31,336 nucleotides of DNA from a virus. Position 1 is the first letter of the stretch. Every line of letters begins with the position of its first letter. The DNA lies in the IMG/VR virus record IMGVR_UViG_3300005589_000080, positions 1-31,336 of that record. One strand, 5' to 3'. Shown here piece by piece: positions 982 to 22,857 of the stretch. The notes under the pieces were generated by a model. The model worked only from the letters and a program-made list of their open reading frames with translations. It was not told the DNA's origin and did no database searches. A program made the translations under genes and the position numbers.

Positions 982-1178
982 GTGTCAGCGCGTGTCAGCA
1001 GGCCGAAAACCCCAAGAAAAGCAGCGAAAGAAGCTAATCCCCTACGGGCTACCATATTTTCATTTCGTCCTTTGTTTATGAGGCCTTCGTGACTGTTCCC
1101 GATTGCTGCTGACACGGGCACTGCGCAGAAATCCACTGAACAAACGGCCTGCTGACGCACCTGCTGACACGCTGACAC
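982..1178. repeat. Candidate integrase arm-type sites (GTGTCAGC repeats)
   Basis: The octamer GTGTCAGC occurs at 982-989 and 992-999 on the plus strand. Its complement GCTGACAC occurs at 1108-1115, 1163-1170 and 1171-1178, with a one-mismatch copy (GCTGACGC) at 1151-1158. Five exact copies and one near copy within 200 bp of non-coding DNA directly after the integrase resemble arm-type binding sites of a lambda-like attP. The two left copies are spaced 10 bp apart, about one helical turn. This is inferred from layout; no binding data are available. Confidence 0.6.
1036..1054 (+). other. attP: Candidate attP core resembling a tRNA 3' end
   Basis: AATCCCCTACGGGCTACCA lies between the left and right arm-type repeats. 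It can be read as the 3' part of a tRNA: end of the T-loop, five T-stem bases (CCCCT), seven acceptor bases (ACGGGCT), discriminator A, then CCA. The bases before it (AAGCT) do not fit a T-loop, so no complete tRNA is present. Tyrosine integrases often use the 3' end of a host tRNA gene as attB, and attP carries the matching segment. A short tRNA-like string can arise by chance, so this remains a hypothesis. Confidence 0.4.
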
Positions 1179-1181
1179 GAC

Positions 1182-1694
1182 CTACTCTTGCGGGGGGTAT
1201 CTCCGCATGATCTCGTTCCATGTCTCGACGGCCAAGCGTTCCAGCTCCGCCATTCGGGCCTGCCGCTCAAGTTCTGCCGCCGCGTCTTCCCGCTCCCCTT
1301 CACGGCCAAGTCGAGCGCGCTCCTGCGTATACAGCTGGTAAGCCGTCCATGCCGTGTCGAGATCGACAGACTGCACTACCCGGCCATCGGGATAGGTTGT
1401 CGTGGCACAGCCAGCAAGCATCCCGAGGGAGAGCAGGCAGAGGATCAGGGGCGCACCATAGTATCGCTTGCCTACCTGCTTGCGCTTGCGACGTCGGGCA
1501 ATAAATCGTGAGATCAAGGGGATGACCACCGACCCGATAACCGTCTGAATCGCGACGTCGCCAGCGGGGCCCCAGGTGATTAGCTCCGGGGCCACTTGTC
1601 GCGCAATGGTCAGCGCAGTGGCTACCGTCCCGATGACGCCACCGCCAGCCAGGGCCACAGTCTTGGTGGTATTCGATTGGGTAATGGGTTTCAT
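1182..1694 (-). CDS. Holin-like membrane protein fused to a lipoprotein (lysis)
   Basis: 170 residues from the ATG preceded by AAGGAG at 6 bases. Two hydrophobic segments (about 12-30 and 44-63) are followed by a strongly basic stretch (RRRKRKQVGKR, 67-77), which is the usual plan of a small holin. A third hydrophobic segment then ends in a lipobox, LAGC, with Cys at residue 96. The remaining 74 residues are charged and probably helical, as in outer-membrane spanin subunits or other small lysis lipoproteins. I saw no ATG, GTG or TTG that would restart translation just before the lipobox, so it appears to be one chain. Signal peptidase II could cleave it into a holin and a lipoprotein. It is the last gene of the minus-strand lysis block. 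The role is inferred from topology and position. Confidence 0.6.
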   Translation of the reverse strand: MKPITQSNTTKTVALAGGGVIGTVATALTIARQVAPELITWGPAGDVAIQTVIGSVVIPLISRFIARRRKRKQVGKRYYGAPLILCLLSLGMLAGCATTTYPDGRVVQSVDLDTAWTAYQLYTQERARLGREGEREDAAAELERQARMAELERLAVETWNEIMRRYPPQE

Positions 1695-1722
1695 TTCATT
1701 CTCCTTGGCCCCGAAGGGCGGT

Positions 1723-1809
1723 TTACAGCCAGAGCCCCAGCACAAAGCCGAGGCCAAAGATCACGGTGATCAGTAGCAGTTCCAGCAGCCAGTCCCTGGC
1801 GAGCTTCAC
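1723..1809 (-). CDS. 28-residue single-span membrane peptide in the lysis block
   Basis: A very short ORF starts at a GTG whose last two bases are the first two of the endolysin stop (GTGA, 4-base overlap), and ends at TAA 28 bases before the next gene. The product begins MKLARDWLLELL, has a hydrophobic run of about 20 residues with a Gly-rich centre, and ends in LGLWL. The overlap is the same coupling used through the whole message, which favours real translation. A single-span peptide beside an endolysin could be a small holin, an antiholin or a holin modulator. No family was recognised. Confidence 0.5.
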   Translation of the reverse strand: MKLARDWLLELLLITVIFGLGFVLGLWL

Positions 1810-2336
1810 AGTAGTGGCTCCACCAGCCGATTCCAATCCTCGATATACTTCTCCGGAGAGCCAGCCCCCAGGTGAGTGTTGTAGTGCTCCTTGTAGTACT
1901 TCGCTTGGTCTTCCAGCGACATCGGGATCGGCTCAGGCCTACGAAAGTAGTGGAGCCGGGCAAACAAGACAGCCAGCGCATCATCTCCGTGGATAACCCG
2001 GAGGACGGCGCGTGGACCCACAGCCAGAAGGCCCGTCAGGTCCTCGTCGCCGCGAGCGAGCCACGTCCCAGCACGACGCCGCAACGCCTTGTTCTTCCTG
2101 AGCTGCTTTACGCCATCCATGACCGAGCCGAGTTCCGTTTGCCAGAGTCCCCACGCGCCTCGGTCCGATTCCATGGAGAAGTGGTGTTGCCTGCGGTGGA
2201 TGAAGAACGATTCCGTGGCCGCCGTCCCGATGAGTAGCCGAGACACCGCGTCGGCGTATCGAGGCGATGGTGCCTTCGTGCCGTAGATGTTTGCCGCACA
2301 CGACCGCGATAGTTCGATTAGTTTCTGTGTGCTCAT
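1806..2336 (-). CDS. Phage endolysin, lysozyme/transglycosylase-like
   Basis: 176 residues, expected to cut peptidoglycan at the end of infection. The segment GTAATESFF (Glu at 42) followed by GAWGLWQ (60-66) matches the catalytic-Glu and GA.G.WQ pattern of the lysozyme-like transglycosylase fold. No signal peptide or membrane anchor is visible, so release should depend on a holin. Its ATG overlaps the stop of the coiled-coil gene upstream (ATGA), and the small membrane ORF overlaps its own stop. The C-terminal part (YYKEHYNTHLGAG) resembles the tail region of other phage hydrolases by my recollection. The specific bond cleaved is not certain. Confidence 0.65.
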   Translation of the reverse strand: MSTQKLIELSRSCAANIYGTKAPSPRYADAVSRLLIGTAATESFFIHRRQHHFSMESDRGAWGLWQTELGSVMDGVKQLRKNKALRRRAGTWLARGDEDLTGLLAVGPRAVLRVIHGDDALAVLFARLHYFRRPEPIPMSLEDQAKYYKEHYNTHLGAGSPEKYIEDWNRLVEPLL

Positions 2337-2635
2337 AGCTTCCGTCCTTGCATCATCGCGAGACCACGGGAGAGACTATCGATTCGGTCAAAGATCTTGG
2401 TGTCTCGATCTCTGGCTTCCTTCTTGTCCTCTCTGATTTCCGCGATGAAGTTATCGACCGTCGTCTCCAGTCGGATGAGTTTGTCGTTTTGCTCTGCCAG
2501 TTCTCTCTTCATTTTCTCCAACTCGGGATCCTTTCCCGGTGATGCCGGTTTTTTGATTTTCAACGCCCCCGCGATGCCAGCGCTCAGACCGCCGAGCGTA
2601 AGGCCGATCTCCTCCCAGTACTCGCCAAAGCTCAT
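2333..2635 (-). CDS. Small protein with one hydrophobic segment and a coiled coil (lysis-associated)
   Basis: 100 residues. A Gly-rich hydrophobic stretch (about 10-26, IGLTLGGLSAGIAGAL) is followed by a long charged helix with heptad character (ELEKMKRELAEQNDKLIRLETTVDNFIAEIREDKK, split here: ELEKMKRELAEQ at about 39, then RLETTVDNFIAE). An N-terminal span plus a coiled coil fits an inner-membrane spanin or an XhlA-like lysis helper, and the gene sits directly before the endolysin. It overlaps the fibre gene upstream by 4 bases (ATGA). It could also be a virion accessory protein, since it is equally next to the fibre genes. The sequence alone does not decide. Confidence 0.45.
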   Translation of the reverse strand: MSFGEYWEEIGLTLGGLSAGIAGALKIKKPASPGKDPELEKMKRELAEQNDKLIRLETTVDNFIAEIREDKKEARDRDTKIFDRIDSLSRGLAMMQGRKL

Positions 2636-4287
2636 GGGCCCACCCCCAGGAATCCCCGCGCCTTGTCGGCTGCTGTTGGCCCACTACCAGCCGGTGTCCA
2701 GTGCACGCGGATCCATGCGGTGTAGATGCGCGCTTCCGCCGTGCTGCCCCCGTCCGATTGCACACGGATGGCTAGGCCCGTGCCGCTGTCCTTCATGTTT
2801 GCGACGGTAGGGGTCAGGCTGTATTTCTCTGTTTCGTCCCCGAAGTCAGTCGTCTGTACGCTACTATCGGTCCATTGCGTCAACGCCCCGCGCGACTGGT
2901 CATCGCCGCTCTGTGTGCCTGCGATTATGGGCTGGACGGTATGGTCGTAGAGTTCCGCCGTCCCGCCGTCCTCGCCGGTGTACGAAATCCTGTACTCCCA
3001 GCCAGCGATAGTCGCGTCACTCGGGATGGCTGACAAATCCGCCCCAGTGAGCTTGAGCGTGTAGCTGGTGTCGCCGTTCGGGATATCAGCAGACGCGTAG
3101 TTGCTGTCATCGGTGAGTGCGTTTGAGGCGTTGGTCCAAGTCGTATTGCCCGGCGTCACGGTCGAGGCAGAGGTGAAGAGTTGCCAGCCCGTATCGCTCG
3201 TGCCCTCGGTCGCTGCCCACGTAAGAAAGTCCGCGTCATGCCATGCGTTTTTTTCGGTGGATACGTAGTCGGCGGAACGGACGACTGAATCAACGCGAGC
3301 GACGGCGACCTCCCCGTCAAGATACGTATCTGCCGCCGAGTCTTTTTTCGCCCCAATGGATATTGTATCCATGGATGCCGCGCCCACAGTGGTTGTCGCA
3401 TCGCTACCAGACACCCCGCCGTCCTTGTAGGCTATCGACGTGCCTGCTGCACCGGTCCCGCTGCGGGTCCCGGTCAGCATCGTCCACGTGCTTGCCGAAA
3501 ATGAGGCAGTGGTTTCCGCAGCAGAAAGCGCACCACTGTCCCCCCAGACGTAGAGAGCGATCCGATCACCTGCGCCACTTGAGCCGCGAAAGATTATTTC
3601 TGCAAAGTTTTTAGAAGCAGATCCGCTGTCGCCTATAAACAAGGCGGCTGCGTTGTCAGTCAGATTGTCTATCGACGCAAGCGCATTTAGCGTAAAAGGC
3701 GCATTCTCAAGAGGCATGGCCCCCGTAAAATAGTGATACTGTGACGTCCCGTTATAAACCGCCGCCGTGATACCCTCGTAATCACTCGCCGCTGTCGTCG
3801 GGCTATTGACCGCAGTTAAGTCGTAGCCATTGCCGGTGATGTCCGTGGTCGTCACGCCCGGCAAGTAAAACGCCTCGATGTCCGTCCCACTGAATACGTC
3901 CGAACCGCTTGACGTACTCGATGCCCCGGCGTTGCCGACGTGGATCCAAAACTCCACATCCGACGCAGCCGACAGGATCGACGATGCGTTGACTAAGAGA
4001 CACCCCGTCCCAGTCGTGCCGCTCTCCGTAAACGTCGAGACAAGGTAGTGAGGCAGGATAGTGCTACCATCGTCCTCAGTGACCCGGATATCTGAGCCAT
4101 CCGATTTGACCGCCGTCCAGAACGCGGTGTCACCCTCACTGAGAAACACCGGGACAACGTGGGTGGCCTCATCAATCAGGGTGGCGTCAGTTGTGACCGG
4201 GACGACGTGAGACCACCCGGACAACGGCGTCGCAGAGAACGCCGCAGAGGGTAGCAGCAATAGCAGGGAGAGCAGTAGTCGCCTCAT
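2632..4287 (-). CDS. Exported DUF2341/LamG-like fibre or surface protein
   Basis: 551 residues. The N-terminus is a clear Sec signal peptide: MRR, then a leucine-rich core, then a PSAAFSA cleavage region. After it, SGWSHVVPVTTDATLID and a following block with FWIHVGNA resemble the DUF2341 module of surface proteins. Residues of about 150-345 look like a concanavalin/LamG fold (GNGYDLTAVN, ASTWTMLTGTRSG, YLDGEVAVARVDS). The C-terminal part is a beta-rich repeat with YTLKLTGADLS and an ending WIRVHW. These folds commonly bind carbohydrate or surfaces. It overlaps the preceding gene by 1 base (TAATG). A signal peptide is unusual for a tail protein, so secretion or periplasmic localisation in the infected cell should be considered. 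Confidence 0.6.
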   Translation of the reverse strand: MRRLLLSLLLLLPSAAFSATPLSGWSHVVPVTTDATLIDEATHVVPVFLSEGDTAFWTAVKSDGSDIRVTEDDGSTILPHYLVSTFTESGTTGTGCLLVNASSILSAASDVEFWIHVGNAGASSTSSGSDVFSGTDIEAFYLPGVTTTDITGNGYDLTAVNSPTTAASDYEGITAAVYNGTSQYHYFTGAMPLENAPFTLNALASIDNLTDNAAALFIGDSGSASKNFAEIIFRGSSGAGDRIALYVWGDSGALSAAETTASFSASTWTMLTGTRSGTGAAGTSIAYKDGGVSGSDATTTVGAASMDTISIGAKKDSAADTYLDGEVAVARVDSVVRSADYVSTEKNAWHDADFLTWAATEGTSDTGWQLFTSASTVTPGNTTWTNASNALTDDSNYASADIPNGDTSYTLKLTGADLSAIPSDATIAGWEYRISYTGEDGGTAELYDHTVQPIIAGTQSGDDQSRGALTQWTDSSVQTTDFGDETEKYSLTPTVANMKDSGTGLAIRVQSDGGSTAEARIYTAWIRVHWTPAGSGPTAADKARGFLGVGP

Positions 4288-4901
4288 TATAGGGCGGCCT
4301 CCACGGTATTGCCCTTGCGCTCGAATTCGATATTGCTGTTACCGATCACTACCGAGCCGTTCGCGTCCACCAGATGGATATACCACTCCTGCCGCTCCCA
4401 CGTTCCAGCCGCCGTGTTGAAGTGCCCCGACACAGCAACGGTGGAGCCATCTACCGCCTGAACCGAAAACCCGCGAATCGGCCGTGGCGTAAAGCCCGGA
4501 GATAGTGCATCAGCCCATGCTGCATTCGCGAAAGTCTCCACCTGTGCCGCCGTAAATGGGGTGTTCCGATCCGTGATGTAAAGCTCCACGGGCGGAGTTC
4601 GTAATGGCTCAGGGATGCCGCCAAGCCAGTACGCCGCCTCGCTCTGGGTCCCCTGATTGACCACAACGAGCGCCTTAGTCTGGGGCTTGATGGTGTCGCC
4701 GTCGATGGCCCAGTATTGGACCTCCGCCCTGTGGACCGTTACCCCGCCTTCTCCGCCATCAAACAGGGGCACAAGGCTCCCCTCCTGGTGGGCACCGATC
4801 ACGTTAGAGGCTCCCTGGAGCGCAGTCAGTCGCTGATTGAAGGTGTCAGCATAAGAGGGGAGCCCGAGGGCCAAGGTGAGCAGTAGAATCGAGAATCGCA
4901 T
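4287..4901 (-). CDS. Exported protein of unknown function in the fibre cluster
   Basis: 204 residues, started at the ATG with AAGGA 8 bases upstream; this lies just after the stop of the long fibre gene. The N-terminus MRFSILLLTLALGLPSYA is a typical signal peptide with cleavage before DTFNQ. The rest is mixed alpha/beta without a family I recognise; it includes YWAIDGDTIKPQTKALVVVN and WERQEWYIHLVD. It is flanked by two other proteins with signal peptides, so the three may work together at the cell surface or on the virion. An earlier in-frame start exists at 4970 but would overlap the fibre gene and hide the signal peptide. Confidence 0.6.
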   Translation of the reverse strand: MRFSILLLTLALGLPSYADTFNQRLTALQGASNVIGAHQEGSLVPLFDGGEGGVTVHRAEVQYWAIDGDTIKPQTKALVVVNQGTQSEAAYWLGGIPEPLRTPPVELYITDRNTPFTAAQVETFANAAWADALSPGFTPRPIRGFSVQAVDGSTVAVSGHFNTAAGTWERQEWYIHLVDANGSVVIGNSNIEFERKGNTVEAAL

Positions 4902-4912
4902 TGTGGTGTTCC

Positions 4913-6742
4913 TTAGTGTTGAGTGTGAGCCAAGAGTTGCCATTTGGAATCGGTTGCGTTGTACATCCACGCGTAGTAGTCCTCATCGCCCGACGTCGTA
5001 GAGACAGCCGGGATCGTGTCGCTGAACGTCTCACCCGCCGAGAACTGCGCGTTCCAGCTCACGGTGTACGGGCCAGCCGCTTGACGGAATCGGAACGTCA
5101 CACGCTGCCCATCGAAAGGAGTGCCACTCGAAGCGGCTACAGTCGTGTTCTCGGTCAATGTGTCGGCGAAAGTAGCCCCGTCGTCCGAGTCCCACGCGGT
5201 CGCGTTCGATGTACTCGAAATCGCCACCGGGGTCTGGAGCATCGTCATCACCTGAAGGATCGTCAGGTCCTGCGGTGTGCCGCCCCCTACGCTACCCTTG
5301 ATGGTCGATGCAGCCATGTCGGCTAGCTTGGCGTTAGTGACCGCCTCATCGACGATTCCCGCCGTAGGCAGTCCCGTAGCGTTGGTCAGCGTCAAGGCCG
5401 AAGGGGTGCCAAGTGCCGGGGTCGTCAGCGTGGGCGATGTACCAAATACCAGCGCCCCAGAGCCGGTCTCGTTAGAGATGACGCCCGCAAGCTCTGCCGA
5501 TGTCGTGGCCGCGAACTGGTCCAGCCCATTCGAGGTGAGTGCATCGCCGCTACCTGCTGGAGTGGCCCATGTACCATCGCCACGCCAGAAGGTTGTGGCA
5601 CTGGCACTGGTCCCACTGTTGAGATTCGCGACAGGCAGATTCCCGGTGATGTCCGTCGCGAGGTCGATCAGGCCAAGGGTGATCGCCTGCGTGGATAGCG
5701 TCAAGTAGTCAGGCGTCCCGGCCAGCGTCACCGCAGCATGGGAAGCCGTGTCGAGCGCGTCAAGGTCCACCGCGCCGGTCACGGTCAGGTAGTCCACCTT
5801 CGCCAACTGTGCCGCCGTGGCAAACTTGTTCGTAGTGGACGAATCGCTCAGATCGTCGGCGTCCAGTACCACCGCCCCTGTCAGGCTATTGACCGAGGCC
5901 ACCGGGGATACGTCCGCCCCATCCTCCACGTTTAGGAAGGTCAGCATGCTGGCCTTGTTCACGCCAAGGGCAATAGTTCCGCTCGTCGTGATAGGCGATC
6001 CGCTGTCCACTTCCAGCCCATCGGAACCCGACACCGCAACGCTTGTAACCGTCCCGGAGCCGCCGAGAAAGTCATCCGCGTCTACCTTTTTCAACGCGTC
6101 ACTGTCCGAGGCGTCCGTGACGATGATGTAATCACCTGTGGCCGCTGTGACCTCAGTCTTCCCGGTAATGTCGCCCGACGACAAAGCCCCGAGAAAGTCA
6201 GCCACATCTACCTTCTTCAGGTTGCCACTGTCTGAGGTGTCCGACATCAGCAGGTAGTCACCACTGACGCCGGTCACTTCCGTCTTGCCCGTGATGTCGG
6301 CCTTGTCGATGGCCCCACCAGCCGTGACGCCTGTCAGGCCCGAGCCGTCCCCGTTCAGCGTGCCGGTAAAAGTGACGTCGCCGGTAGTTGAGCTAATAAT
6401 AAACGGGTAATCCTGAAACGACGACGAGCCGGTATAGCGCAGAATCTTGAAATCGTCGTCCGTGTCGGTCTGGACCACCCAGCGCAGATCGGACCCTTCG
6501 AACATCCGAATACCACGCCGCTGGCCACTCGCAGACATCAGATCGACATACCGCGATCCTGCCGTCGTAGAGGCTCCGATTGTGATCGTCCCGTCCGCAT
6601 CAATCGTGCCGTCCGCCTCAATAGTGGCCCCCGTGTCACCATAGCCCCCGCCCACATCGAGGCTTTCGATCAGCCGTTGTGCCGTGGCCGCGAACATCAC
6701 GACCAGCACCAGCGCCGTTACAATTCCGAGTGTTCTTTTCAT
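4913..6742 (-). CDS. Tail fibre-like protein with an N-terminal signal peptide
   Basis: 609 residues. Residues 1-22 ([21 protein letters not shown]) have the three-part form of a Sec signal peptide with AxA cleavage. The body is rich in Thr, Ser, Gly and Asp with repeated beta-type units, as in trimeric phage fibres. An internal repeat of about 45 residues occurs twice: [20 protein letters not shown]...[10 protein letters not shown] and [20 protein letters not shown]...[10 protein letters not shown]. The segment ending [13 protein letters not shown] is a phrase known from many phage fibres. It follows the tail hub genes. A standard fibre would not be exported, so the leader is the odd point; the N-terminus could alternatively be a buried attachment helix. 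Confidence 0.65.
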
Positions 6743-6751
6743 GCTTTGCTC

Positions 6752-7834
6752 CTAGGCTTGGTCGGTCAGTTCCGACGAAATGTCGTAGTAGACGTCTGCT
6801 TCCGTGATGCGATAGGTGATAGCTCCGGTGTCTTCAGTTCCCACCGGGTCACCGGGATCGAGACTGAGCCCGGAAAAGGGAACGGGTGAAGGCTCCGTAA
6901 ATCCGAGCCCCACAGTGACGGGTGATGTGCCGCGCGTGACCCGGACGTCGCCCCACTCGAAGAACTCCCATCCCGAGCCCCCTGCTGTCGCGGTGTAGGT
7001 GTCCGAGCCTACAGTCATGTTGATATTCGCGCTGGCCTCAGAATCCCAATCGATGCGATAGGATCCACCAGTCACCACGAAACCAGCGGGGATGTGACTG
7101 ATATCCATCTCAAGGGTAGTATCAATATAAAGCTTGGTGTTGTAGATGTCCTTGGTGGTAGCTGGTGGCCCTGGATCGTCGATGATACGCACCAGGGTGG
7201 TTTCCATGCTGACCCTTCCGCCAGCGGAGCCGCTCCCTGTCACTGTGCGGTTGCGCCGGTTGTCCCACGAATCCTGTGCTGTGGTGTATTCGGGATTCGG
7301 TGTCGGAGGGGCGGGGATCGAGGTGTGGCGCGAATAGCCAGCGGTGTCGGGGCTGGCCCCCGCGTCACCGCGCAGATAGATCAGTAGGTCGAGCGCGTCT
7401 TGCATCGCCTGCCAGTACCGCGCCTCGTTCACGCGGATAGGATCATCTTCCAGACTGGTACCAAGTGCCGCCGCCAGACTCGCTCTTGTGTAGGCGACGC
7501 CGCCTGTGGAGGACTCGACGAAGTGGGGAGCCAGCCCGTCAAAATTCCCTGGGGCACCGGCTATCGCGTTTCGAATCTTGACGAGGTTCTGGTAGGCGTA
7601 GTTGTTCGTCCCACTGCACCGCATCCCGAGCAAGTCAGCCATAGTCGGGAACGTCGTCAAGGTCCCATCGGCCTTGTAGAACTGCGTCAGGGTGTAGGTG
7701 GCCGAGAGGCGCGAGTCGTTGATAGCCTGCTCGCGCTCATTGACGGCGCGGCACAGCTCGAACATGGCCACCCGATAGTTCGAGGGACTGCCGGTTGCCC
7801 GCGTGCCTGCGTATGTGGAGATAGACCAGCCCAT
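6752..7834 (-). CDS. Tail tip or fibre protein, function unknown
   Basis: 360 residues without signal peptide. The first half is helical (FELCRAVNEREQAINDSRLS; later ARYWQAMQDALDLLIYLRG), the second half beta-rich (FVVTGGSYRIDWDSEASANI; YRITEADVYYDISSE). It lies between the hub gene and the long fibre with only 4 and 9 bases of spacing. Position and composition suggest a connector between hub and fibre or a receptor-binding part of the tail tip. I do not recognise a named family. Confidence 0.5.
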   Translation of the reverse strand: MGWSISTYAGTRATGSPSNYRVAMFELCRAVNEREQAINDSRLSATYTLTQFYKADGTLTTFPTMADLLGMRCSGTNNYAYQNLVKIRNAIAGAPGNFDGLAPHFVESSTGGVAYTRASLAAALGTSLEDDPIRVNEARYWQAMQDALDLLIYLRGDAGASPDTAGYSRHTSIPAPPTPNPEYTTAQDSWDNRRNRTVTGSGSAGGRVSMETTLVRIIDDPGPPATTKDIYNTKLYIDTTLEMDISHIPAGFVVTGGSYRIDWDSEASANINMTVGSDTYTATAGGSGWEFFEWGDVRVTRGTSPVTVGLGFTEPSPVPFSGLSLDPGDPVGTEDTGAITYRITEADVYYDISSELTDQA

Positions 7835-7838
7835 TGCG

Positions 7839-9707
7839 TCACTCGAAGAAGTTCAGGGCATCCCAGCCCGTACCGGTTGGATTCGGGATACAGAGCATGC
7901 CCTTGTCGTCACCCGCATTGACCCAGCCCCGCGAATTCGGGAACAGGTTCGTAGTCGGCAGCGCGGCCTTCGTCTCGGCCTGCCAGAAGGAATCGACCGG
8001 GAACCACGCGTTATCCTTGATCTTGTAAATCTGCTGGATATCATCCCCGAGCAGCACAAGACCGAGCGTCGTTTCGTCCAGTCCGCTCGCCGAGGGGAGT
8101 GCCGCGTATGTATTCGCCGTGACCCAGATGCCGCCGCCCATGCCTTCCCACGAATCCCCGTCGTACATCTCTGGGCGATTCTCGTCAGTGTTCCACCGGG
8201 TATCTCCACGACGCACGGCGCGAGGCTCGTAGTCGCTATAATTCCGGGTCACTGTCGGGTATCGATCACCGTCTACGTCAAGGGGCTGGTGGAGCGCATC
8301 AATCAGCAGGCCGAACAGATCGCCGAGTCGCTTTTCCTGATTCGTGAGTTCCACCGTCACGGGTAGCGGATTCGCCAGGTCGATGGTCAGCGCCACCACT
8401 TCGACCTCGGTATCGATGCTCTGATCAGGGTCCACCACGCGATAGATACCGCCAATGCGCAAATCGTCCACGTCGGGGAATTCGTCGCTCTTGGCTAAGT
8501 CGAGCGCATTGATCGTGACGTTGATGCGTGGCTCGGCAAAGTCTTCGAGGATACGATTCGCGGCCTGAACGAGGCTGTCTGCATAGCGGTAGCGCCGGTC
8601 GATGTGAATGTGTGGAGACAGGCCGTAGGTCGCGATGCTGTCGGCATCGTCGATGTAGTCTTCCTCCTGCCCTTCCGCGTCCGAGAGCTTGAGCCGGGTG
8701 GCCGGGTCCTCGCCTTCGCCGTAAAAATAGACGCGGTTGACCAGTTGGCTCCAGTCGGTCGTGTGCTCGATGCCCTGGAGGCCGCCACCGATGGGTAAGG
8801 GGTAGGGTTCCGCGTTGCCAAGGGTCACGTTCCAGTTCAGCCGTCGATTGGCGTCCACCCAGAAGTGGCCGGCCACCGCCTTGGGGAGCAATCCTTGCAT
8901 GTGGAGCAGTGCCCGCAGAATGGTGGCATCCTGCACGCGAAAGTAGGTGGTCTGTTCGAGGATCGCTTCGTCGATGTCGCCCAGGGTAATCGGATTATCT
9001 CGCACCTGGAGATCGAGCAGCGCCTGCACGTGGGCACCAACCCCCATGGCCGCACCTTCATAAAGGATTACAGGCTCCTCGCCCAGCTGAGCAATGGCCG
9101 ACTGACAGAACACGTCCTTGTAGGTCGCGTCTCCGTTTCGCCGTCCTGCCGTCTCCTGAATCTGGAAGCTGTCAATATAGAATCCGAAGCGGTCACGGAC
9201 GGTCACGGTGTTAGGGCGCACCAGGTAGGCCGCTGCCGGGTTATCCGCCGCCACAGAAAAGCGCACCTCACTGGCTTCATCAACAGCAAGGCGCAGTTCT
9301 CCATCGTGCCAGGCATCGACACCCGCCAGCCGTTCGCCGTCTGCGTCGTGGATCTCGATTCGATAGGGCCGCTCCTTGCTCTCCCGCAAAACGAACAGCG
9401 CAGGGAACAGGCGTATTTCACCACCACCGCCCCCCGTCCCGGGAGCGACGATATAGTACCCGTAGCTCTCGCCAGTCCAGCCAGAAGGGTCCTCGGTGTA
9501 GTCAGGGCCGACACCGTTCCAGCCGGGAGCCTCAAGGGCCAACGGAGCGCCACCACCTTGCCCGCCGCCTGGATTCCGCTCGGTCGGTCGGTCCCAGTAA
9601 GGCGTGTCGAAAAAGTCCTCGACGCTACTGGCGACTTTAGGCCATAGCGGCTGTATCCCGCATGGGTACGATCCACAGAATCCAGTTATCGGGGCATTGG
9701 TGGGCAT
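7839..9707 (-). CDS. Tail-associated hub protein (Tal/Gp37-like)
   Basis: 622 residues. The central part, about 100-500, follows the layout of siphovirus tail hub proteins: a beta domain (EVRFSVAADNPAAAYLVRPN, then VTVRDRFGFYIDSFQI), a helical insertion with VQALLDLQV, and a return with NRVYFYGEGEDPATRLKL, RYRYADSLVQAANRILEDFA and IGGIYRVVDPDQSI. The family forms the trimeric plug at the end of the tail tube and carries receptor-binding or cell wall-cutting extensions. The C-terminal 140 residues (DTRWNTDENRPEMYDGDSW; then a WV.ANTYAALPS region) look like small adhesive modules. It lies downstream of the distal tail genes, as expected for a hub, and overlaps its neighbour by 1 base. Confidence 0.65.
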   Translation of the reverse strand: MPTNAPITGFCGSYPCGIQPLWPKVASSVEDFFDTPYWDRPTERNPGGGQGGGAPLALEAPGWNGVGPDYTEDPSGWTGESYGYYIVAPGTGGGGGEIRLFPALFVLRESKERPYRIEIHDADGERLAGVDAWHDGELRLAVDEASEVRFSVAADNPAAAYLVRPNTVTVRDRFGFYIDSFQIQETAGRRNGDATYKDVFCQSAIAQLGEEPVILYEGAAMGVGAHVQALLDLQVRDNPITLGDIDEAILEQTTYFRVQDATILRALLHMQGLLPKAVAGHFWVDANRRLNWNVTLGNAEPYPLPIGGGLQGIEHTTDWSQLVNRVYFYGEGEDPATRLKLSDAEGQEEDYIDDADSIATYGLSPHIHIDRRYRYADSLVQAANRILEDFAEPRINVTINALDLAKSDEFPDVDDLRIGGIYRVVDPDQSIDTEVEVVALTIDLANPLPVTVELTNQEKRLGDLFGLLIDALHQPLDVDGDRYPTVTRNYSDYEPRAVRRGDTRWNTDENRPEMYDGDSWEGMGGGIWVTANTYAALPSASGLDETTLGLVLLGDDIQQIYKIKDNAWFPVDSFWQAETKAALPTTNLFPNSRGWVNAGDDKGMLCIPNPTGTGWDALNFFE

Positions 9708-10435
9708 TACAGATAGGTCCGTCCCGTCGTGGTGATGTATCCGTTCGTGGCGTCGTCAGCGTCCTTAATGCTGGTCTCGGCCGTCGTGTGATAGACCTCA
9801 CCCAGCTTGAGGCTCCCGCTCGACACAGCCGGTGCGGTGGGGCTTGCATCCTCGGTGCCCGTGACAGCCGTCACTACGCCGTCGGTGTCCATTTGCAGGG
9901 CGTCGATCCGGGGGTTCGTCGAGGGCGCCGTAAACGTGAGCGTGGCCTCATCGAGCAGGGCAGCCGGTTCGTCGTCAATAATCGCCGCACCAATCTGCAC
10001 CTTGATCGTCATGTCAGGCGTGTCTTGCGCCTTGGGCATCAATTCCGTCTTGGCTGCGCTCCGCTGGATGCCGGTGCCGCGCCCCACGACGCACGCGATC
10101 AGCATCTTGGCCGCTTCCAACTGTGTCGCCATCTCGTTGAGCGTTTCCCGGTAAATGAATTGCAGAAACTTCGTACCGCTGCCATGGCTCACCGCCGTGG
10201 TGCCACCATACCCCCGCTCAATGGTCAGGGTGTCAAGGCCACTGGAAGGGGTGTCGGTCGCGATGGCGGTGACGAGGATCTTTTCAGTCGCGCCCTCCCG
10301 GTGGATCAGGCAAGGGGCAGTCAGTCCAGCCGCGCCGCTCGACGCAAGGACAAGCGAAGTGGCCGAGGCATTGATCGCCGCATTGGATATGGCCCACCAC
10401 CGATCCGCGTTTCGTTTCAGCTTTCGTGTTGCCAT
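9707..10435 (-). CDS. Tail tip structural protein, unnamed family
   Basis: 242 residues. The first half contains AAINASATSLVLASSGAAGL and a segment with TDTPSSGLDTLTIERGYGGT, which resembles a small beta domain found in phage neck or tail tip proteins. The C-terminal half has TKVQ-like strands (IKVQIGAAIIDDEPAALLDE) and DALQMDTDGVVTAVTGTEDA, reminiscent of the upper baseplate or fibre-hub family. It sits between the split distal tail protein and the hub, so a baseplate role is likely. It overlaps the hub gene by 1 base. Confidence 0.5.
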   Translation of the reverse strand: MATRKLKRNADRWWAISNAAINASATSLVLASSGAAGLTAPCLIHREGATEKILVTAIATDTPSSGLDTLTIERGYGGTTAVSHGSGTKFLQFIYRETLNEMATQLEAAKMLIACVVGRGTGIQRSAAKTELMPKAQDTPDMTIKVQIGAAIIDDEPAALLDEATLTFTAPSTNPRIDALQMDTDGVVTAVTGTEDASPTAPAVSSGSLKLGEVYHTTAETSIKDADDATNGYITTTGRTYL

Positions 10436-10437
10436 CG

Positions 10438-10758
10438 TTATCCCATCGCGTAGTAGTTGACGGCGCAGGTGCCTGTGACACCTGTAACCGTGATTGCATT
10501 GTCAATGCCGCCCTGCAGTTGAGGCACCAAGCCAGACATACCACCATTGCTCGGCGTCCATGTGGAGCCGCTATCGTCGCTCACCTCGGCCGTCTGCCCG
10601 TCACTCTTCAGCCGCAGCCAGTCGCCATCGCTGAGGGTGTTATTCCACAGGATGGTTTCGCCCGTGGCCGCGTTGTAAATCTGCACAAAGGTAGCGTCGG
10701 CCCCGCTCGCCTTAACGATGTAGGTCCCGTCCGTTTTCCGCGTCCCGCCAATGTTCAC
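10438..10758 (-). CDS. Probable C-terminal half of a split distal tail protein
   Basis: 106 residues. Content such as VQIYNAATGETILWNNTLSDGD (first part only: VQIYNAATGETILW) and AEVSDDSGSTWTPSNGG resembles the galectin-like C-terminal domain of siphovirus distal tail (Dit) proteins. The gene starts within the stop of the previous ORF (ATGA), which carries the N-terminal Dit-like belt domain. In most phages the two domains are one chain. The split could be real or due to a frameshift; the clean ATGA coupling argues for two polypeptides. Confidence 0.45.
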   Translation of the reverse strand: MNIGGTRKTDGTYIVKASGADATFVQIYNAATGETILWNNTLSDGDWLRLKSDGQTAEVSDDSGSTWTPSNGGMSGLVPQLQGGIDNAITVTGVTGTCAVNYYAMG

Positions 10759-18691: not shown

Positions 18692-20818
18692 TCATGCCGC
18701 AGCCAGCATGCACTCGCAGCCACCGTGTAGGGGCGGGTGATTGATGTTGCCTCGGGCTTTCAGGGGCACAATGTTGTCGTCACCGGGATCGACTTCTTCC
18801 GATGCCTCGACAAAGGTTTCTTCCACGCCGACAATCTGCCCGTCGAGTTCTTCGCAGAGAGGGCAGGCTTCCGCATTGGCCACCCAGGCGAGGCGGGTCA
18901 CACCGAGGGCCACGAAGGCCGTCCGGGCTACCGCGTCGCCGAGTTTTACGGCCTCGGTACTTGCAATTTTCTCGGCCTGGTTCTTCCGCTTGCCGTCCTC
19001 GCGGCCTTCTTCCCATTCAGTCAGCCGTTGCTCGATGGCTTCGGCCAGCTTGTCGGGGTCGATGCTCTCGATCAGCTGGCGCATTTGGCCGGCAAAGGAG
19101 CCGCCCTTGCGCTTGATAAAGGCCTCGATGTAGTTCTGTACGAAGTCCGAAAGGTCGGGGGCGTCGGATTCTTGTTCGCGGGCCACCGCCGAAATCATCG
19201 CTTCGGCGTAGGTCTCGAAAATGGGACCGAGAATCTTTTCTACCGCCGCGCGGAAACCACCTTGCGATTCAAAGTACTCGGAAACAGCATTGCCAAAGTC
19301 GCTCGCGTCCCGCTGGGTCAGGTGTTTCGCGGAGAGCTTCCGCATTTCGCGGTTAACGCCCTTCATGAGCCGATCACTGTCCCGCTGGATCTGCTTACGG
19401 AAGGCACCACGAAGGGAGCGCCGTTCCCGGGTCACGTCCCGCAATTCCGCCCGGCGTTCCACGCTTACGCGCTCGCCGATCTCGCGGGTTTCCCGGGTAT
19501 CACAGGTGCCACAGCCACACGCCTTGTCCCGTGTGCCGGAATCACCGTCCTGTTTCGGGGCTTCGTCGGGGGCCTCGTCGGTCAGGTCGGGATTACCGCC
19601 CGGATTGCCCATATTCAGGGGCTTGGCGATGTCGTCGTAACCGTCTACGGGGTCCATATTGAGCTTGTCGCGGCCCTCATTGACGGACATAAACGGCTGA
19701 CCTACGGCAATACGAAGGGCTTCGAAGCGCGTCTTGATGTCGGTACGGAGCAGGGCATCAACCATAAATTCGATGTAGTAGGTCTTGCGCTCTTCTGCTT
19801 CGAGCAGCACCTTCTCCATGCGCTGTTCGATGTTCGTCATCCAAGGGCCAAGGGTTAGCTGGATGAACTGGATCATCTGGTGTTCGATGTTCGAGAACGT
19901 GGCCTTGCTTAATTCCATGAGCAGGTGGGGCGGGATACCGAAGATCCGGGCCACTTCCTGGACCTGGAAGGTCATGCCCTCGATCATCTGGGCTTCTTGC
20001 GCGGTAATGCCCACAGTGCGAAACTTCATGCCGTTATCAAATACAGCGACCTTATGCGAGTTGCTCACCCCTCCATAAGTGTCTGACAGCTTGTCAGCAA
20101 ATGCCTGCTTGTCTTCTTTTGTTTTGAACTGGTGCTCAGTCTCGACCACGGAGCCAGGGGACATGCCTGTCTTGAAGACTCGCGCCCCAAACTCGTCCAT
20201 CGCGCCCATCTTGCCGAACGTCGTCGCAGCGCGCTGGGCCATGGCGTACCCCAGAAAGCCCTTATCTGTAAAGCCTTTAAGGTGCAAGATATCGCGTTTT
20301 TTGTTGGTAAGGGTGGTGATCTTCCCGGCGCCGTCACGATAGTCGTAATATAGCCAGCCGTTGACGCGTCGGGTTTCTTCCATTTGGCAGGTCAGGAGGG
20401 GCCAGATCTCTTGGACATGGCCGGAGAGAGGGCTACGAACGACCTGCGCGTAGCTATCGCCCCGCAGCAAGGCATTAGCTATAAGCTCCGTCTTGAATTC
20501 GAAGGGGGTCTGTTCCCGGTTGGGTTCTTTTTCGAGGACCCACCAGAGCGGGTGCTCTTCCGCTGCCCTGATCTTTGTGGTCCCGCCCTTCACCTTTTCG
20601 TAGAGAGGGGAGGGGAGCATAGCCAAGGACCACGCAATTATGCGCGATGCCTGAAGTACAGCGGGAAGGCTAAGGACCTCATCGGATGTGAGGTGTTTGC
20701 CTGTAGCATCCGCCGAAATGGCTTGCCCCAGGAACCAATTCTCTTGCTCTAGCGAATTCGCGGCAAGATTAGTACTGACCCGATTTCGCCGCTCCATCAC
20801 GCGAGAGAGGAAGCCCAT
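18692..20818 (-). CDS. Portal protein fused to a Mu-F/SPP1 gp7-like domain
   Basis: 708 residues against about 400-450 for a usual HK97 portal. Residues 1-410 are portal (HPLWWVLEKEPNREQTPFEF; FQVQEVARIFGIPPHLLMEL; FMSVNEGRDKLNMDPVDGYD). A linker with Cys pairs (CGCGTCDT, about 437-445) leads to a helical domain and a C-terminal head morphogenesis module: NAEACPLCEELDGQIVGVEE and NHPPLHGGCECML. In many phages that module is a separate minor head protein bound to the portal. Fusion would fix one copy per portal subunit. The portal is the DNA entry and exit ring at the head vertex. It follows a 51-codon ORF with 1-base overlap. Confidence 0.92.
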   Translation of the reverse strand: MGFLSRVMERRNRVSTNLAANSLEQENWFLGQAISADATGKHLTSDEVLSLPAVLQASRIIAWSLAMLPSPLYEKVKGGTTKIRAAEEHPLWWVLEKEPNREQTPFEFKTELIANALLRGDSYAQVVRSPLSGHVQEIWPLLTCQMEETRRVNGWLYYDYRDGAGKITTLTNKKRDILHLKGFTDKGFLGYAMAQRAATTFGKMGAMDEFGARVFKTGMSPGSVVETEHQFKTKEDKQAFADKLSDTYGGVSNSHKVAVFDNGMKFRTVGITAQEAQMIEGMTFQVQEVARIFGIPPHLLMELSKATFSNIEHQMIQFIQLTLGPWMTNIEQRMEKVLLEAEERKTYYIEFMVDALLRTDIKTRFEALRIAVGQPFMSVNEGRDKLNMDPVDGYDDIAKPLNMGNPGGNPDLTDEAPDEAPKQDGDSGTRDKACGCGTCDTRETREIGERVSVERRAELRDVTRERRSLRGAFRKQIQRDSDRLMKGVNREMRKLSAKHLTQRDASDFGNAVSEYFESQGGFRAAVEKILGPIFETYAEAMISAVAREQESDAPDLSDFVQNYIEAFIKRKGGSFAGQMRQLIESIDPDKLAEAIEQRLTEWEEGREDGKRKNQAEKIASTEAVKLGDAVARTAFVALGVTRLAWVANAEACPLCEELDGQIVGVEETFVEASEEVDPGDDNIVPLKARGNINHPPLHGGCECMLAAA

Positions 20819-20989
20819 CAGCCGCGCCTCCCGGTATCCAGGTTCAGCCCGTCAAGAAAGCGAATAGGTATCCCATACATGCGCGCTATTTCTTCCGGCG
20901 GAATAGGGGTAGGGGCAATATTAAGCGGGGGCGGGTCTACGCAGAAGACGAGGCGGGGTTTCGTGTCGCCCATCAGCCACGCCTCCCGG
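20814..20989. repeat. 21-bp near-exact direct repeat at two gene junctions
   Basis: A 21-base segment, CCCATCAGCC followed by R-CGCCTCCCGG, occurs at 20814-20834 and 20969-20989 with one difference, 155 bp apart. Each copy contains the stop of one gene and the start of the next (GGCTGATGGGC on the minus strand), and each upstream product ends in GRRG. It frames the 51-codon ORF. Confidence 0.8.
20818..20973 (-). CDS. 51-residue protein with a portal-like motif
   Basis: The ORF starts with ATG overlapping the previous stop by 1 base (TGATG) and ends overlapping the portal start by 1 base. The product begins MGDTKPRLVFCVDPPP and ends DTGRRG. Its segment EIARMYGIPIRFLDGL aligns with EVARIFGIPPHLLMEL of the portal next door (8 of 16 identical, several others conservative). 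It may be a decayed or regulatory duplicate of a portal helix-loop, or an unrelated small protein. The perfect junction spacing favours translation. Confidence 0.5.
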   Translation of the reverse strand: MGDTKPRLVFCVDPPPLNIAPTPIPPEEIARMYGIPIRFLDGLNLDTGRRG

Positions 20990-21188
20990 GAATCTTCGGC
21001 TCAGGCCCAATCGCGACCCACACCAGGAGCATCCCAAGCAGAAACAGCAGCGCACCACCGCACAGGATCGCCCACCAGATCGACGCGAGCTTCGTCAGAC
21101 CGGCCATAATCATGACCAATCCAAGCAAAGTGACTGTCTCTTCCGGTTCCAGCAATCCATCAGCCTCGTGTTGCGTTTGTTGCGTCAA
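20973..21188 (-). CDS. Small protein with two membrane segments
   Basis: 71 residues if started at the TTG at 21188; no clear ribosome-binding site precedes it, and internal starts such as the ATG in LVMIMAGL (21113 or 21107) are possible. Two hydrophobic stretches (about 19-35, 38-60) flank SIWWAIL and end before a polar tail (PEPKIPGRRG). It is the first minus-strand gene after the divergent control region. Membrane proteins near portal genes are uncommon; function unknown. Confidence 0.45.
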   Translation of the reverse strand: MTQQTQHEADGLLEPEETVTLLGLVMIMAGLTKLASIWWAILCGGALLFLLGMLLVWVAIGPEPKIPGRRG

Positions 21189-21230
21189 TCCACAACAAAC
21201 CTAACACGGACCAGCCCCGAAGACTACCCC

Positions 21231-21251
21231 CTAGTTTCTAGAACCTAGAAA
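21231..21251. promoter_or_regulatory. Candidate operator: CTAG triplet array with a perfect inverted repeat
   Basis: TTTCTAG (21235-21241) and CTAGAAA (21245-21251) form a perfect inverted repeat with a 3-base spacer. CTAG recurs at 21231, 21238 and 21245, that is, with 7-bp period. It lies 15 bases before the -35 box of the plus-strand promoter and between divergent genes, a good place for a repressor. The RHH protein at 21693 is an obvious candidate ligand. Confidence 0.5.
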
Positions 21252-21266
21252 AAATTACGAAAGTGC

Positions 21267-21295
21267 TTGACATCCGCTATTGTGTCGGCTACAAT
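21267..21295 (+). promoter_or_regulatory. Strong sigma-70 promoter
   Basis: TTGACA (21267-21272), 17-base spacer, TACAAT (21290-21295). Both boxes are at or near consensus and the spacing is optimal. Expected start of transcription is near 21302, leaving a leader of about 46 bases before AGGAG and the first ATG. Confidence 0.8.
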
Positions 21296-21347
21296 AAAGA
21301 CAGTTAAGGCAAACGGCAACCCGAAGGGGCCAAACAGGAGACACGAC

Positions 21348-21464
21348 ATGATTGAAGGTAAGCACAACGAAGCACGCAGGACGGGCGGCTTGATATGCTC
21401 AAACGCTGGTGCAAATACTTTGGTGTCGAACTGGAGGATGCATGATGAACGACCAGCATCATGA
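21348..21464 (+). CDS. 38-residue leader ORF of the inverted unit
   Basis: ATG with AGGAG at 7 bases, the first start after the strong promoter. The product (MIEGKHNEARRTGGLICSNA...) has no recognised motif and overlaps the next gene by 20 bases in another frame. It may be a translated leader that couples expression of the genes downstream. The strong ribosome-binding site supports translation, but not function. Confidence 0.4.
   Translation: MIEGKHNEARRTGGLICSNAGANTLVSNWRMHDERPAS
21395..21445 (+). CDS. 16-residue ORF ending in the next start
   Basis: ATG CTC AAA gives a 16-residue peptide (MLKRWCKYFGVELEDA) whose stop overlaps the start of the 83-residue gene (TGATG). The peptide is compact and the GGAGG for the next gene lies in its 3' end. 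No good ribosome-binding site precedes it, so it may be chance. Confidence 0.2.
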   Translation: MLKRWCKYFGVELEDA

Positions 21465-21696
21465 GGGTGGTGAGTACTACCCGGTAGACGTCGTGCCCAA
21501 TTCGTACAAGGCGGATTTCAAGCGCCACGTCGCGTGCTACACGCTCGATCCTGGCTCCCCAGACAGGGACACCTACCGGTGGATACTGATAATCGAGGGC
21601 GAGCGCTGCACACACGAATCGCGTCACGAGTCGCCGGAACAGTGCGAACGAGTCGCTGAAATCGTTATTGCGGCCATACGGGGGCAAGACCAATGA
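21445..21696 (+). CDS. 83-residue protein of unknown function in the inverted unit
   Basis: Start with GGAGG 7 bases upstream. The sequence has an acidic N-terminus (MNDQHHEGGEYYPVDVV), a strand with YRWILIIEGERCTHE, and a C-terminal helix (QCERVAEIVIAAIRG). It shares a stop/start overlap (ATGA) with the RHH gene, so the two are probably co-expressed. An alpha/beta fold is likely; no family recognised. Plus-strand orientation is opposite to every structural gene around it. Confidence 0.6.
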   Translation: MNDQHHEGGEYYPVDVVPNSYKADFKRHVACYTLDPGSPDRDTYRWILIIEGERCTHESRHESPEQCERVAEIVIAAIRGQDQ

Positions 21697-21872
21697 CCGA
21701 CGCCCCCCGAAAGCGCGCCCCGGGTGGTGGAGCCAAGCCCCTGTACGGTGAACGAATGACGAAGTGTACCGTCAGACTCCCACCGGTCCAGGTGGCACGG
21801 CTCAAGGCCCTCGGCAACGGCAACCTGAGCAAAGGGCTACACAAGGCCCTCGGCATCGACCGCGACAAGTAG
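21693..21872 (+). CDS. Ribbon-helix-helix regulator (Arc/CopG-like)
   Basis: 59 residues, ATGA overlap with the previous gene. After a basic start (PRKRAPGGGAKPLYG) comes the RHH pattern: strand MTKCTVRLPP, helix VQVARLKALG, turn with GN, helix LSKGLHKALG. RHH proteins bind as dimers of dimers to short repeats, such as the CTAG array upstream of the same unit. An autoregulatory repressor is the simplest model. The target is inferred. Confidence 0.6.
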   Translation: MTDAPRKRAPGGGAKPLYGERMTKCTVRLPPVQVARLKALGNGNLSKGLHKALGIDRDK

Positions 21873-21876
21873 ACCG

Positions 21877-21904
21877 CAGGCCCCGATCACGCGACCGGGG
21901 CCTG
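21877..21904. terminator. Stem-loop terminator between converging genes
   Basis: CAGGCCCCG (21877-21885) pairs exactly with CGGGGCCTG (21896-21904) around a 10-base loop. It starts 4 bases after the RHH stop and lies before the end of the minus-strand gene at 21913. A weak T-rich stretch follows on the plus strand. The symmetry allows use from both sides. Confidence 0.65.
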
Positions 21905-21912
21905 TGCTGTGT

Positions 21913-22197
21913 CTATCCGCTGCTCTGTGCCAATTCGCAAGCACGCCCCACCGCTACTAGTGCCTCGTTCAAGTCCTGTATGGTATCGCCCTTACCCCGA
22001 ATCCCAGCACAGAGGAGCTTCTTTATCGCATGCTGCCGGGCGGGACACGTCACCCCGAAGGCCACCAGTACCGCGTAGACATCCACGGAAGTGAATCCGA
22101 CATCAGGATACCCATCGACACCACGGATACGCCTGATATACTTCGAACGTCCGTGCTCTTCCGCCTCTTCATTCTCACTTCTCAATTCACTCTTCAC
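21913..22197 (-). CDS. Conserved-looking phage protein of unknown function
   Basis: 94 residues from a GTG inside the 3' end of the zinc-ribbon gene. The first 11 residues (MKSELRSENEE) derive from a dispersed DNA repeat. The remainder has a distinct pattern, TSVDVYAVLVAFGVTCPARQ then HAIKKLLCAGIRGKGD and TIQDLNEALVAVGRACELAQ, that I recall from other phage genomes without a named function. It is the last gene of the terminase message and meets the inverted unit head-on at the hairpin. Confidence 0.6.
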   Translation of the reverse strand: MKSELRSENEEAEEHGRSKYIRRIRGVDGYPDVGFTSVDVYAVLVAFGVTCPARQHAIKKLLCAGIRGKGDTIQDLNEALVAVGRACELAQSSG

Positions 22198-22384
22198 TAT
22201 TCACCAACCTTTCTACAGTTTTGCCATGCCACCCACACCGGCACCGATGGAAGCGCACTCGGCATCCACCACCGGGAGGCATCGTCCGGGTCACAGGCGC
22301 ATTTTCCCCACACACGAGACACACGCAACCCGCTGGGCGAGGGGGCTTCCATACCGGGGCCTCGTTTCCTTGCTCATCCGTCAT
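22187..22384 (-). CDS. Small zinc-ribbon protein
   Basis: 65 residues; ATGA overlap with the 30-residue membrane ORF. Two Cys groups, CVCLVC (about 21-26) and HRCRC (about 46-50), spaced as in zinc ribbons, flank a basic loop with TRTMPPGGGCRVRF. Such proteins in phages are often DNA- or RNA polymerase-binding regulators. The end (LVNSEE) lies in the dispersed repeat. Function not known. Confidence 0.5.
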   Translation of the reverse strand: MTDEQGNEAPVWKPPRPAGCVCLVCGENAPVTRTMPPGGGCRVRFHRCRCGWHGKTVERLVNSEE

Positions 22385-22473
22385 TTACTCAATCTCCAAA
22401 TCGCGGCCATCAATCCCAGCCCAACCAGCAGGCCGAGCAGTGCACCACAGCCAAAATCGTCCAGATACCTCAC
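22381..22473 (-). CDS. 30-residue single-span membrane peptide
   Basis: GTG start overlaps the previous stop by 4 bases (GTGA), and its TGA overlaps the next start (ATGA). The product MRYLDDFGCGALLG... has one Gly/Leu-rich span (about 9-25) and a basic end (WRLSK), a classic N-out/C-in small membrane protein. Coupling on both sides is strong evidence for translation. Function unknown; its place in a terminase operon is unexpected. Confidence 0.5.
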   Translation of the reverse strand: MRYLDDFGCGALLGLLVGLGLMAAIWRLSK

Positions 22474-22850
22474 GGGGCAGGGTTGGCCAGGCTGACACCA
22501 GCGTGTACTGCCGTGGCCATGCCGTTGACCCATTGACCCCGATGCAAGGCCGAGGAATCCCGCCGTTCACCCGCCCCGGCCAAAGTCTTCGCGCGCTTCA
22601 CGGGGTCTTGGTGCTCCGAAACTACCCGCTGCACCTGCTCCATGCTCGTGGCCAGCGCGTTGACTCGTTCCGCCTTCGCAAGATCACGGGCCATCGCCTT
22701 CCGCTGCTGATACTCCCTGCCGCTTGTGCGATGCGCGCATTTGTTGGTGCAAAACTTTCGCCGGCCACTCCCCCGCGGGATCGGTCCGCCACACTCGTGG
22801 CACTCCTTCAACCCGCCGACACCCTTCTCACTTCTCAATTCACCATTCAC
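22470..22850 (-). CDS. Zinc-finger protein with helical tail
   Basis: 126 residues from GTG (a TTG at 22868 inside the terminase end is an alternative). Near the N-terminus, CHECGGPIPRG and FCTNKCAH form a CxxC...CxxxC zinc site, as in small phage HNH-like or treble-clef proteins without the catalytic residues. A basic helix follows (REYQQRKAMARDLAKAERVN). The N-terminal VNGELRSEK comes from the dispersed repeat. It follows the large terminase by 7 bases. A nucleic-acid contact is likely, the exact role is open. Confidence 0.55.
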   Translation of the reverse strand: MNGELRSEKGVGGLKECHECGGPIPRGSGRRKFCTNKCAHRTSGREYQQRKAMARDLAKAERVNALATSMEQVQRVVSEHQDPVKRAKTLAGAGERRDSSALHRGQWVNGMATAVHAGVSLANPAP

Positions 22851-22857
22851 TATTCCC

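Follow-up and report, generated by a model that had tools for sequence, protein, structure and literature searches.

Predicted Sec-type signal sequences are conserved as a property of fibre-region proteins in a temperate siphophage lineage

The window analyzed here, i.e., the whole stretch of DNA under study, is a 31,336-base virus record (G+C 59%) whose gene content, including an integrase, terminase, portal, head protease, capsid, tape measure, Dit, and Prophage_tail/Tal-like protein, points to a temperate siphophage. After the Tal-like gene, the minus strand successively encodes a 360-aa protein, three proteins designated P1 (609 aa), P2 (204 aa), and P3 (551 aa), and the lysis region. The open reading frames of this trio were found exactly where the first-pass annotation had placed them, all on the minus strand. 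The features of the locus are as follows.

7839–9707, minus strand: Tal-like tail protein (Prophage_tail) with no signal, used as synteny anchor
6752–7834, minus strand: signal-less 360-aa tail protein ending in DQA; putative virion adaptor or receptor-binding protein
4913–6742, minus strand: P1, fibre-repeat protein with an N-terminal Sec signal (signal scorer, IMG/VR matches, syntenic relatives with signals)
6680–6742, minus strand: 21-residue signal peptide of P1, predicted to be cut between ATA and QR (scorer)
4916–5245, minus strand: C-terminal domain of P1, where the protein is best conserved (alignments)
4287–4901, minus strand: P2, Sec signal, no fold recognised (signal scorer, relatives, weak model)
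4848–4901, minus strand: P2 signal peptide, 18 residues, predicted cut between SYA and DT (scorer; SYG before DT in relative L003)
2632–4287, minus strand: P3, DUF2341 protein with a Sec signal (Pfam, signal scorer, relatives)
4234–4287, minus strand: P3 signal peptide, 18 residues, predicted cut between AFS and AT (scorer)
3889–4101, minus strand: DUF2341 domain of P3, residues 63–133 (Pfam PF10102, E = 5.5e-7)
2647–3204, minus strand: P3 C-terminal domain, residues 362–547, a separate signal-bearing protein in relatives L101 and L107 (blastp E = 3e-11 and 4e-8)
2333–2635, minus strand: 100-aa membrane/coiled-coil protein of the lysis region in a spanin- or XhlA-like position (weak Rz-like match)
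1806–2336, minus strand: likely endolysin position, phrog_3108, a family without assigned function (relatives have a GH108 or SLT endolysin here)

Shine–Dalgarno-like sequences precede the ATG of P1 (AGGAG) and of P2 (AAGGA), the P3 ATG overlaps the P2 stop, and the gene after P3 overlaps P3 in turn. A promoter and terminator scan of positions 1000–10500 returned counts not above chance, and no minus-strand terminators. Given these overlapping or near-touching genes and no promoter or terminator found for the trio itself, P1–P3 look like part of a late tail-to-lysis transcript. An artefact of start-codon choice was also considered, and judged unlikely because of the Shine–Dalgarno-like sequences (P1, P2) or start–stop overlap (P3) at these ATGs.

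Next, we evaluated the N-termini with our own signal scorer, which combines a von Heijne prokaryotic weight matrix with a hydrophobic-core test and the n-region charge. Sec-type signals had been proposed for all three proteins, and all three passed, versus 0 of the 31 other genes in the window. According to this scorer, each displays the features expected for Sec and signal peptidase I, i.e., a basic n-region, an uncharged hydrophobic core, and small residues at −3/−1. Cleavage scores and best 9-residue Kyte–Doolittle means were 10.0 and 3.33 for P1, 8.8 and 2.69 for P2 (MRFSILLLTLALGLPSYA, followed by DT), and 11.3 and 3.29 for P3 (MRRLLLSLLLLLPSAAFS, followed by AT), and the P1 residues just past the predicted cut resemble those of its relatives (AQRMIESLDIGGG). 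For P1 and P2, the predicted cuts coincide with the ATA and PSYA ends suggested in the first-pass annotation; for P3, a cut between FSA and T had been suggested, but the best site lies one residue earlier, between A-F-S and A, since F is disfavoured at −3. The scorer flagged no lipobox in P1–P3, and no conserved Tat motif was seen by eye.

All 12 known exported E. coli proteins used as controls passed the scorer, as did 6/6 exported proteins of a 49-kb E. coli stretch versus 3/36 others (two N-terminal membrane proteins and one weak match). At a tighter setting, 5 of 2395 internal-Met decoys passed. That the scorer also passes some N-terminal membrane anchors counts against the export reading.

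Phage-fibre repeats were detected in one member of the trio, P1, and all three genes occupy a tail-region position. DUF2341 and LamG-like modules had both been claimed: the former holds for P3 (30.4 bits versus a curated cut-off of 23.4), whereas LamG gave no match in the window's own proteins. DUF2341 (PF10102) was undetected in the L003 homologue of P3. Pfam and PHROGs provided no fibre family for P1–P3 and no significant family at all for P2, tblastn against INPHARED with P2, P3, and their L003 versions yielded no matches, and PDB profile searches with P2 and P3 yielded none at E ≤ 1. The P3 model was unusable (pLDDT 32.5), and the P2 model was of low confidence (pLDDT 61), with no significant match among PDB structures; as a side observation, the latter suggests two tandem helix-plus-four-strand units, NTF2- or cystatin-like. 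A need for disulphides as the reason for P1 export was rejected, because mature P1 contains no cysteine in any of the five lineages described below.

A similarity scan with P1 matched 584 IMG/VR stretches, of which the best 80 were kept. These included a divergent syntenic phage (L003) encoding the same trio, all with signals; as L083/L084 show, the same virus is present on a second contig, identical over 11 kb. A scan with a Tal profile provided three more relatives, and Tal identity to the window's protein was 43% for L003, 54% for L101, 45% for L106, and 40% for L107. The search for the trio in other phages, proposed as a check in the first-pass annotation, thus recovered four independent IMG/VR relatives with signal-bearing genes at this position. 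Overall, 13/13 trio-position proteins from five lineages passed the scorer, versus 6/129 other ORFs of at least 100 aa (Fisher P = 3e-14, a value that overstates independence given shared ancestry). All 13 have a plausible signal-peptidase site after the core, and their uncharged stretches are mostly 15–19 residues long. Pairwise identity among these proteins ranged from 9 to 54% for the mature parts and from 11 to 61% for the signal sequences; since the latter diverge to this extent, it is the property that was kept and not the letters.

The 13 proteins reflect some variation in gene content. L101 has no third gene in the trio position, and the third-position gene of L107 (L107:13713–14231, 172 aa, with a weak EF-hand match) has a hydrophobic start without basic residue, fails the scorer, and was left out of the 13. 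In both L101 and L107, the second gene is not a P2: it matches residues 362–547 and 352–514 of P3, respectively (E = 3e-11 and 4e-8), and has a signal of its own. Export hence appears to go with the gene position despite the change of protein. Two Manatee Spring phages have a similar domain at the N-terminus of a signal-less protein annotated as tail tubular protein.

Just upstream of the trio, all five lineages encode a signal-less protein of 325–360 aa (longer in L107) that ends in DQA. For the window protein at 6752–7834 and its equivalents, the N-terminal end is better conserved, and the middle and C-terminal part more variable; this type of protein looks like an adaptor or receptor-binding protein.

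We then considered how widespread such signals are across 68 non-redundant IMG/VR loci retrieved by P1 similarity. Signal-bearing fibre ORFs were found in 6 of these (9%, L003 lineage included), while the P1-family fibres in the other 62 share repeats and modules with P1, but lack a signal and look like ordinary virion fibres. L005, a partial ORF, and the weak L061 were candidates for signal-bearing fibre ORFs that we took to be false positives. L028/L045, which begin MKIFALLLLLPSICLGQ, did not pass the scorer and are likely a further signal-bearing case. Signals were also clustered: 11/57 other same-strand ORFs carried one in loci with signal-bearing fibres versus 10/534 (Fisher 4e-7), although the strictest version of this comparison, demanding a Shine–Dalgarno sequence, missed likely cases. 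In L060, the genes directly after the baseplate genes encode a fibre and a pectate-lyase/tailspike-like (EPS-depolymerase-like) protein, both with signals. In L025, a signal-bearing fibre is accompanied by three more signal-bearing ORFs, one with LamG, after gpJ-like and fibre genes. L080, a contig with a weakly portal-like gene, encodes LamG and G8/CEMIP beta-helix proteins with signals. These three unrelated loci repeat the pattern, so that the trait appears in several phage backgrounds and may have arisen independently in each. The G8 plus CEMIP beta-helix protein (L080:11326–13761) is an observation in its own right, i.e., a signal-bearing protein in a phage contig made of modules better known from secreted cellular proteins.

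Genome scans for a host assignment gave no relative. The host is probably diderm, based on the GH108 or SLT endolysins of the relatives, lipobox-bearing lysis-region genes, and short signals (18–27 residues), each only suggestive.

By the usual view, both the production and the attachment of tailed-phage fibres take place in the cytoplasm, and to our knowledge none is exported from it. Other phage proteins are: the T5 Llp-type exclusion lipoproteins are Sec-exported and protect progeny from their receptor, but Llp is a small lipoprotein, and the trio has no lipobox. Lambda Lom, encoded between tail spike and fibre genes, is likewise exported with a signal peptide (PMC12309495), and resembles the trio in coming from the tail-fibre region, but is an outer-membrane beta-barrel made in the lysogen and neither fibre- nor lectin-like. 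Likened to the trio through its published description, XepA of the Bacillus subtilis prophage PBSX is a late protein encoded in the lysis region that is exported and reportedly missing from mature particles (PMC6834076); unlike the trio, it is pentameric, comes from a Gram-positive prophage, and has a different fold and no fibre repeats. WceF of Pantoea stewartii is a tailspike-fold trimer with an export signal (PMC7949094), but it is a bacterial enzyme exported by Tat, a carrier of folded proteins. In the literature searched (few subscription-journal papers, no preprints), we found no earlier description of signal-bearing or exported fibre-type sets, even though exported phage proteins such as Lom, Llp, and XepA are already known.

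Taken together, the claim of an exported set is well supported, with signals conserved across five lineages, and we consider it very probable that the trio proteins are exported. This assessment builds on features read from the sequence, namely signals that are predicted, kept as a property across lineages, and retained through domain swaps, together with the position of the genes in the operon. What the proteins do once exported is more tentative. As the best overall explanation, for which we see about an even chance, P1–P3 would be Sec-exported late fibre/lectin-like proteins, freed at lysis and acting as non-virion adhesins. Specifically, this temperate siphophage lineage would encode two or three late proteins with fibre/lectin-like modules between tail-tip and lysis genes, each with a cleavable Sec signal. 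The host Sec machinery would carry P1–P3 into the periplasm, perhaps using SRP given the very hydrophobic signal cores, signal peptidase I would cut off the signals, and the mature proteins would fold in the periplasm. When the lysis proteins act, P1–P3 would be freed alongside the progeny. Their most likely role from then on would be that of non-virion adhesins that bind glycans on the envelope, on cell debris, or in the surroundings; by masking receptors on debris, for example, they could keep progeny from being trapped. A mainly non-virion role, taken by itself, is a reasonable but somewhat doubtful proposition. We favour it since the signal-less protein at 6752–7834 could serve as receptor binder of the virion, and since XepA is a precedent for exported late proteins outside the virion. 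Counting against it, the P1 family is signal-less and ordinary-fibre-like in 62/68 loci, and lysis would strongly dilute soluble adhesins.

Dilution at lysis also counts against the leading alternative, i.e., that P1–P3 are true virion fibres reaching the particle by an unusual route: after export and periplasmic folding, they would join the tails once lysis has brought the contents of periplasm and cytoplasm together. The trio does occupy a tail-fibre gene position, P1 is built of phage-fibre repeats, and the signal-bearing genes of L060 and L025 are placed directly after baseplate genes and after gpJ-like and fibre genes, respectively. T4 fibres and P22 tailspikes can also attach to particles in lysates, which is consistent with such late completion. 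Yet no dedicated tail-attachment domain was recognised past the cleavage site, and with a signal-less candidate next to the trio we regard virion fibres as an unlikely, if serious, explanation. Slightly less probable still is the broader proposal that a recurrent class of tailed phages exports receptor-binding fibres through host Sec and has its virions completed or dressed somewhere other than in the usual assembly compartment.

Two further alternatives were considered. The very hydrophobic cores, and the two E. coli N-terminal membrane proteins that passed the scorer, would fit N-termini left uncleaved as inner-membrane anchors or as a hydrophobic plug for tail docking, but the plausible signal-peptidase site past the core in 13/13 proteins and uncharged stretches of mostly 15–19 residues make this improbable. 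Lysogenic-conversion (moron) proteins of the lambda Lom or T5 Llp kind, which would change the lysogen surface and shut out other phages, are more improbable again: Sec-exported phage proteins of this kind exist, and Lom sits between tail spike and fibre genes (PMC12309495), but start–stop overlaps tie the trio to tail and lysis genes, the scan found it no separate promoter or terminator, and no lipobox was flagged in P1–P3. Along the same lines, among the three functions offered in the first-pass annotation (coating the host surface, blocking superinfection, and joining virions after export), a superinfection block from the lysogen is the least likely, because the genes belong to a late tail–lysis operon with no promoter of their own found and have no PADLOC match to known defence-system families.

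Whether P1–P3 act as adhesins or on virions, a conserved and recurrent exported fibre/lectin-like set would imply either a class of secreted phage adhesins or a second site of virion completion, and either would change fibre-gene annotation as well as views of receptor binding, debris trapping, and phage-derived glycan enzymes. Virion completion after export, if true, would break with the rule of an entirely cytoplasmic assembly of tailed-phage particles. For expression work, such proteins should be made without their first 18–27 residues, or in the periplasm.

Two minor observations concern other parts of these genomes. Between portal and terminase, the window has ~2 kb without a clear main-strand gene (20818–22858). 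In the lysis region, three ORFs (window 1182–1757, minus strand; L101:14985–15806; L003:12528–12842) combine a holin-like, hydrophobic N-terminal part with a lipobox in mid-protein (MLAGC, VASGC, and LAGC). Such an ORF may be a holin/outer-spanin-like fusion, or the lipoprotein may be released from an internal start; in the window ORF, the Val codon tried as internal start is GTA, not GTG.
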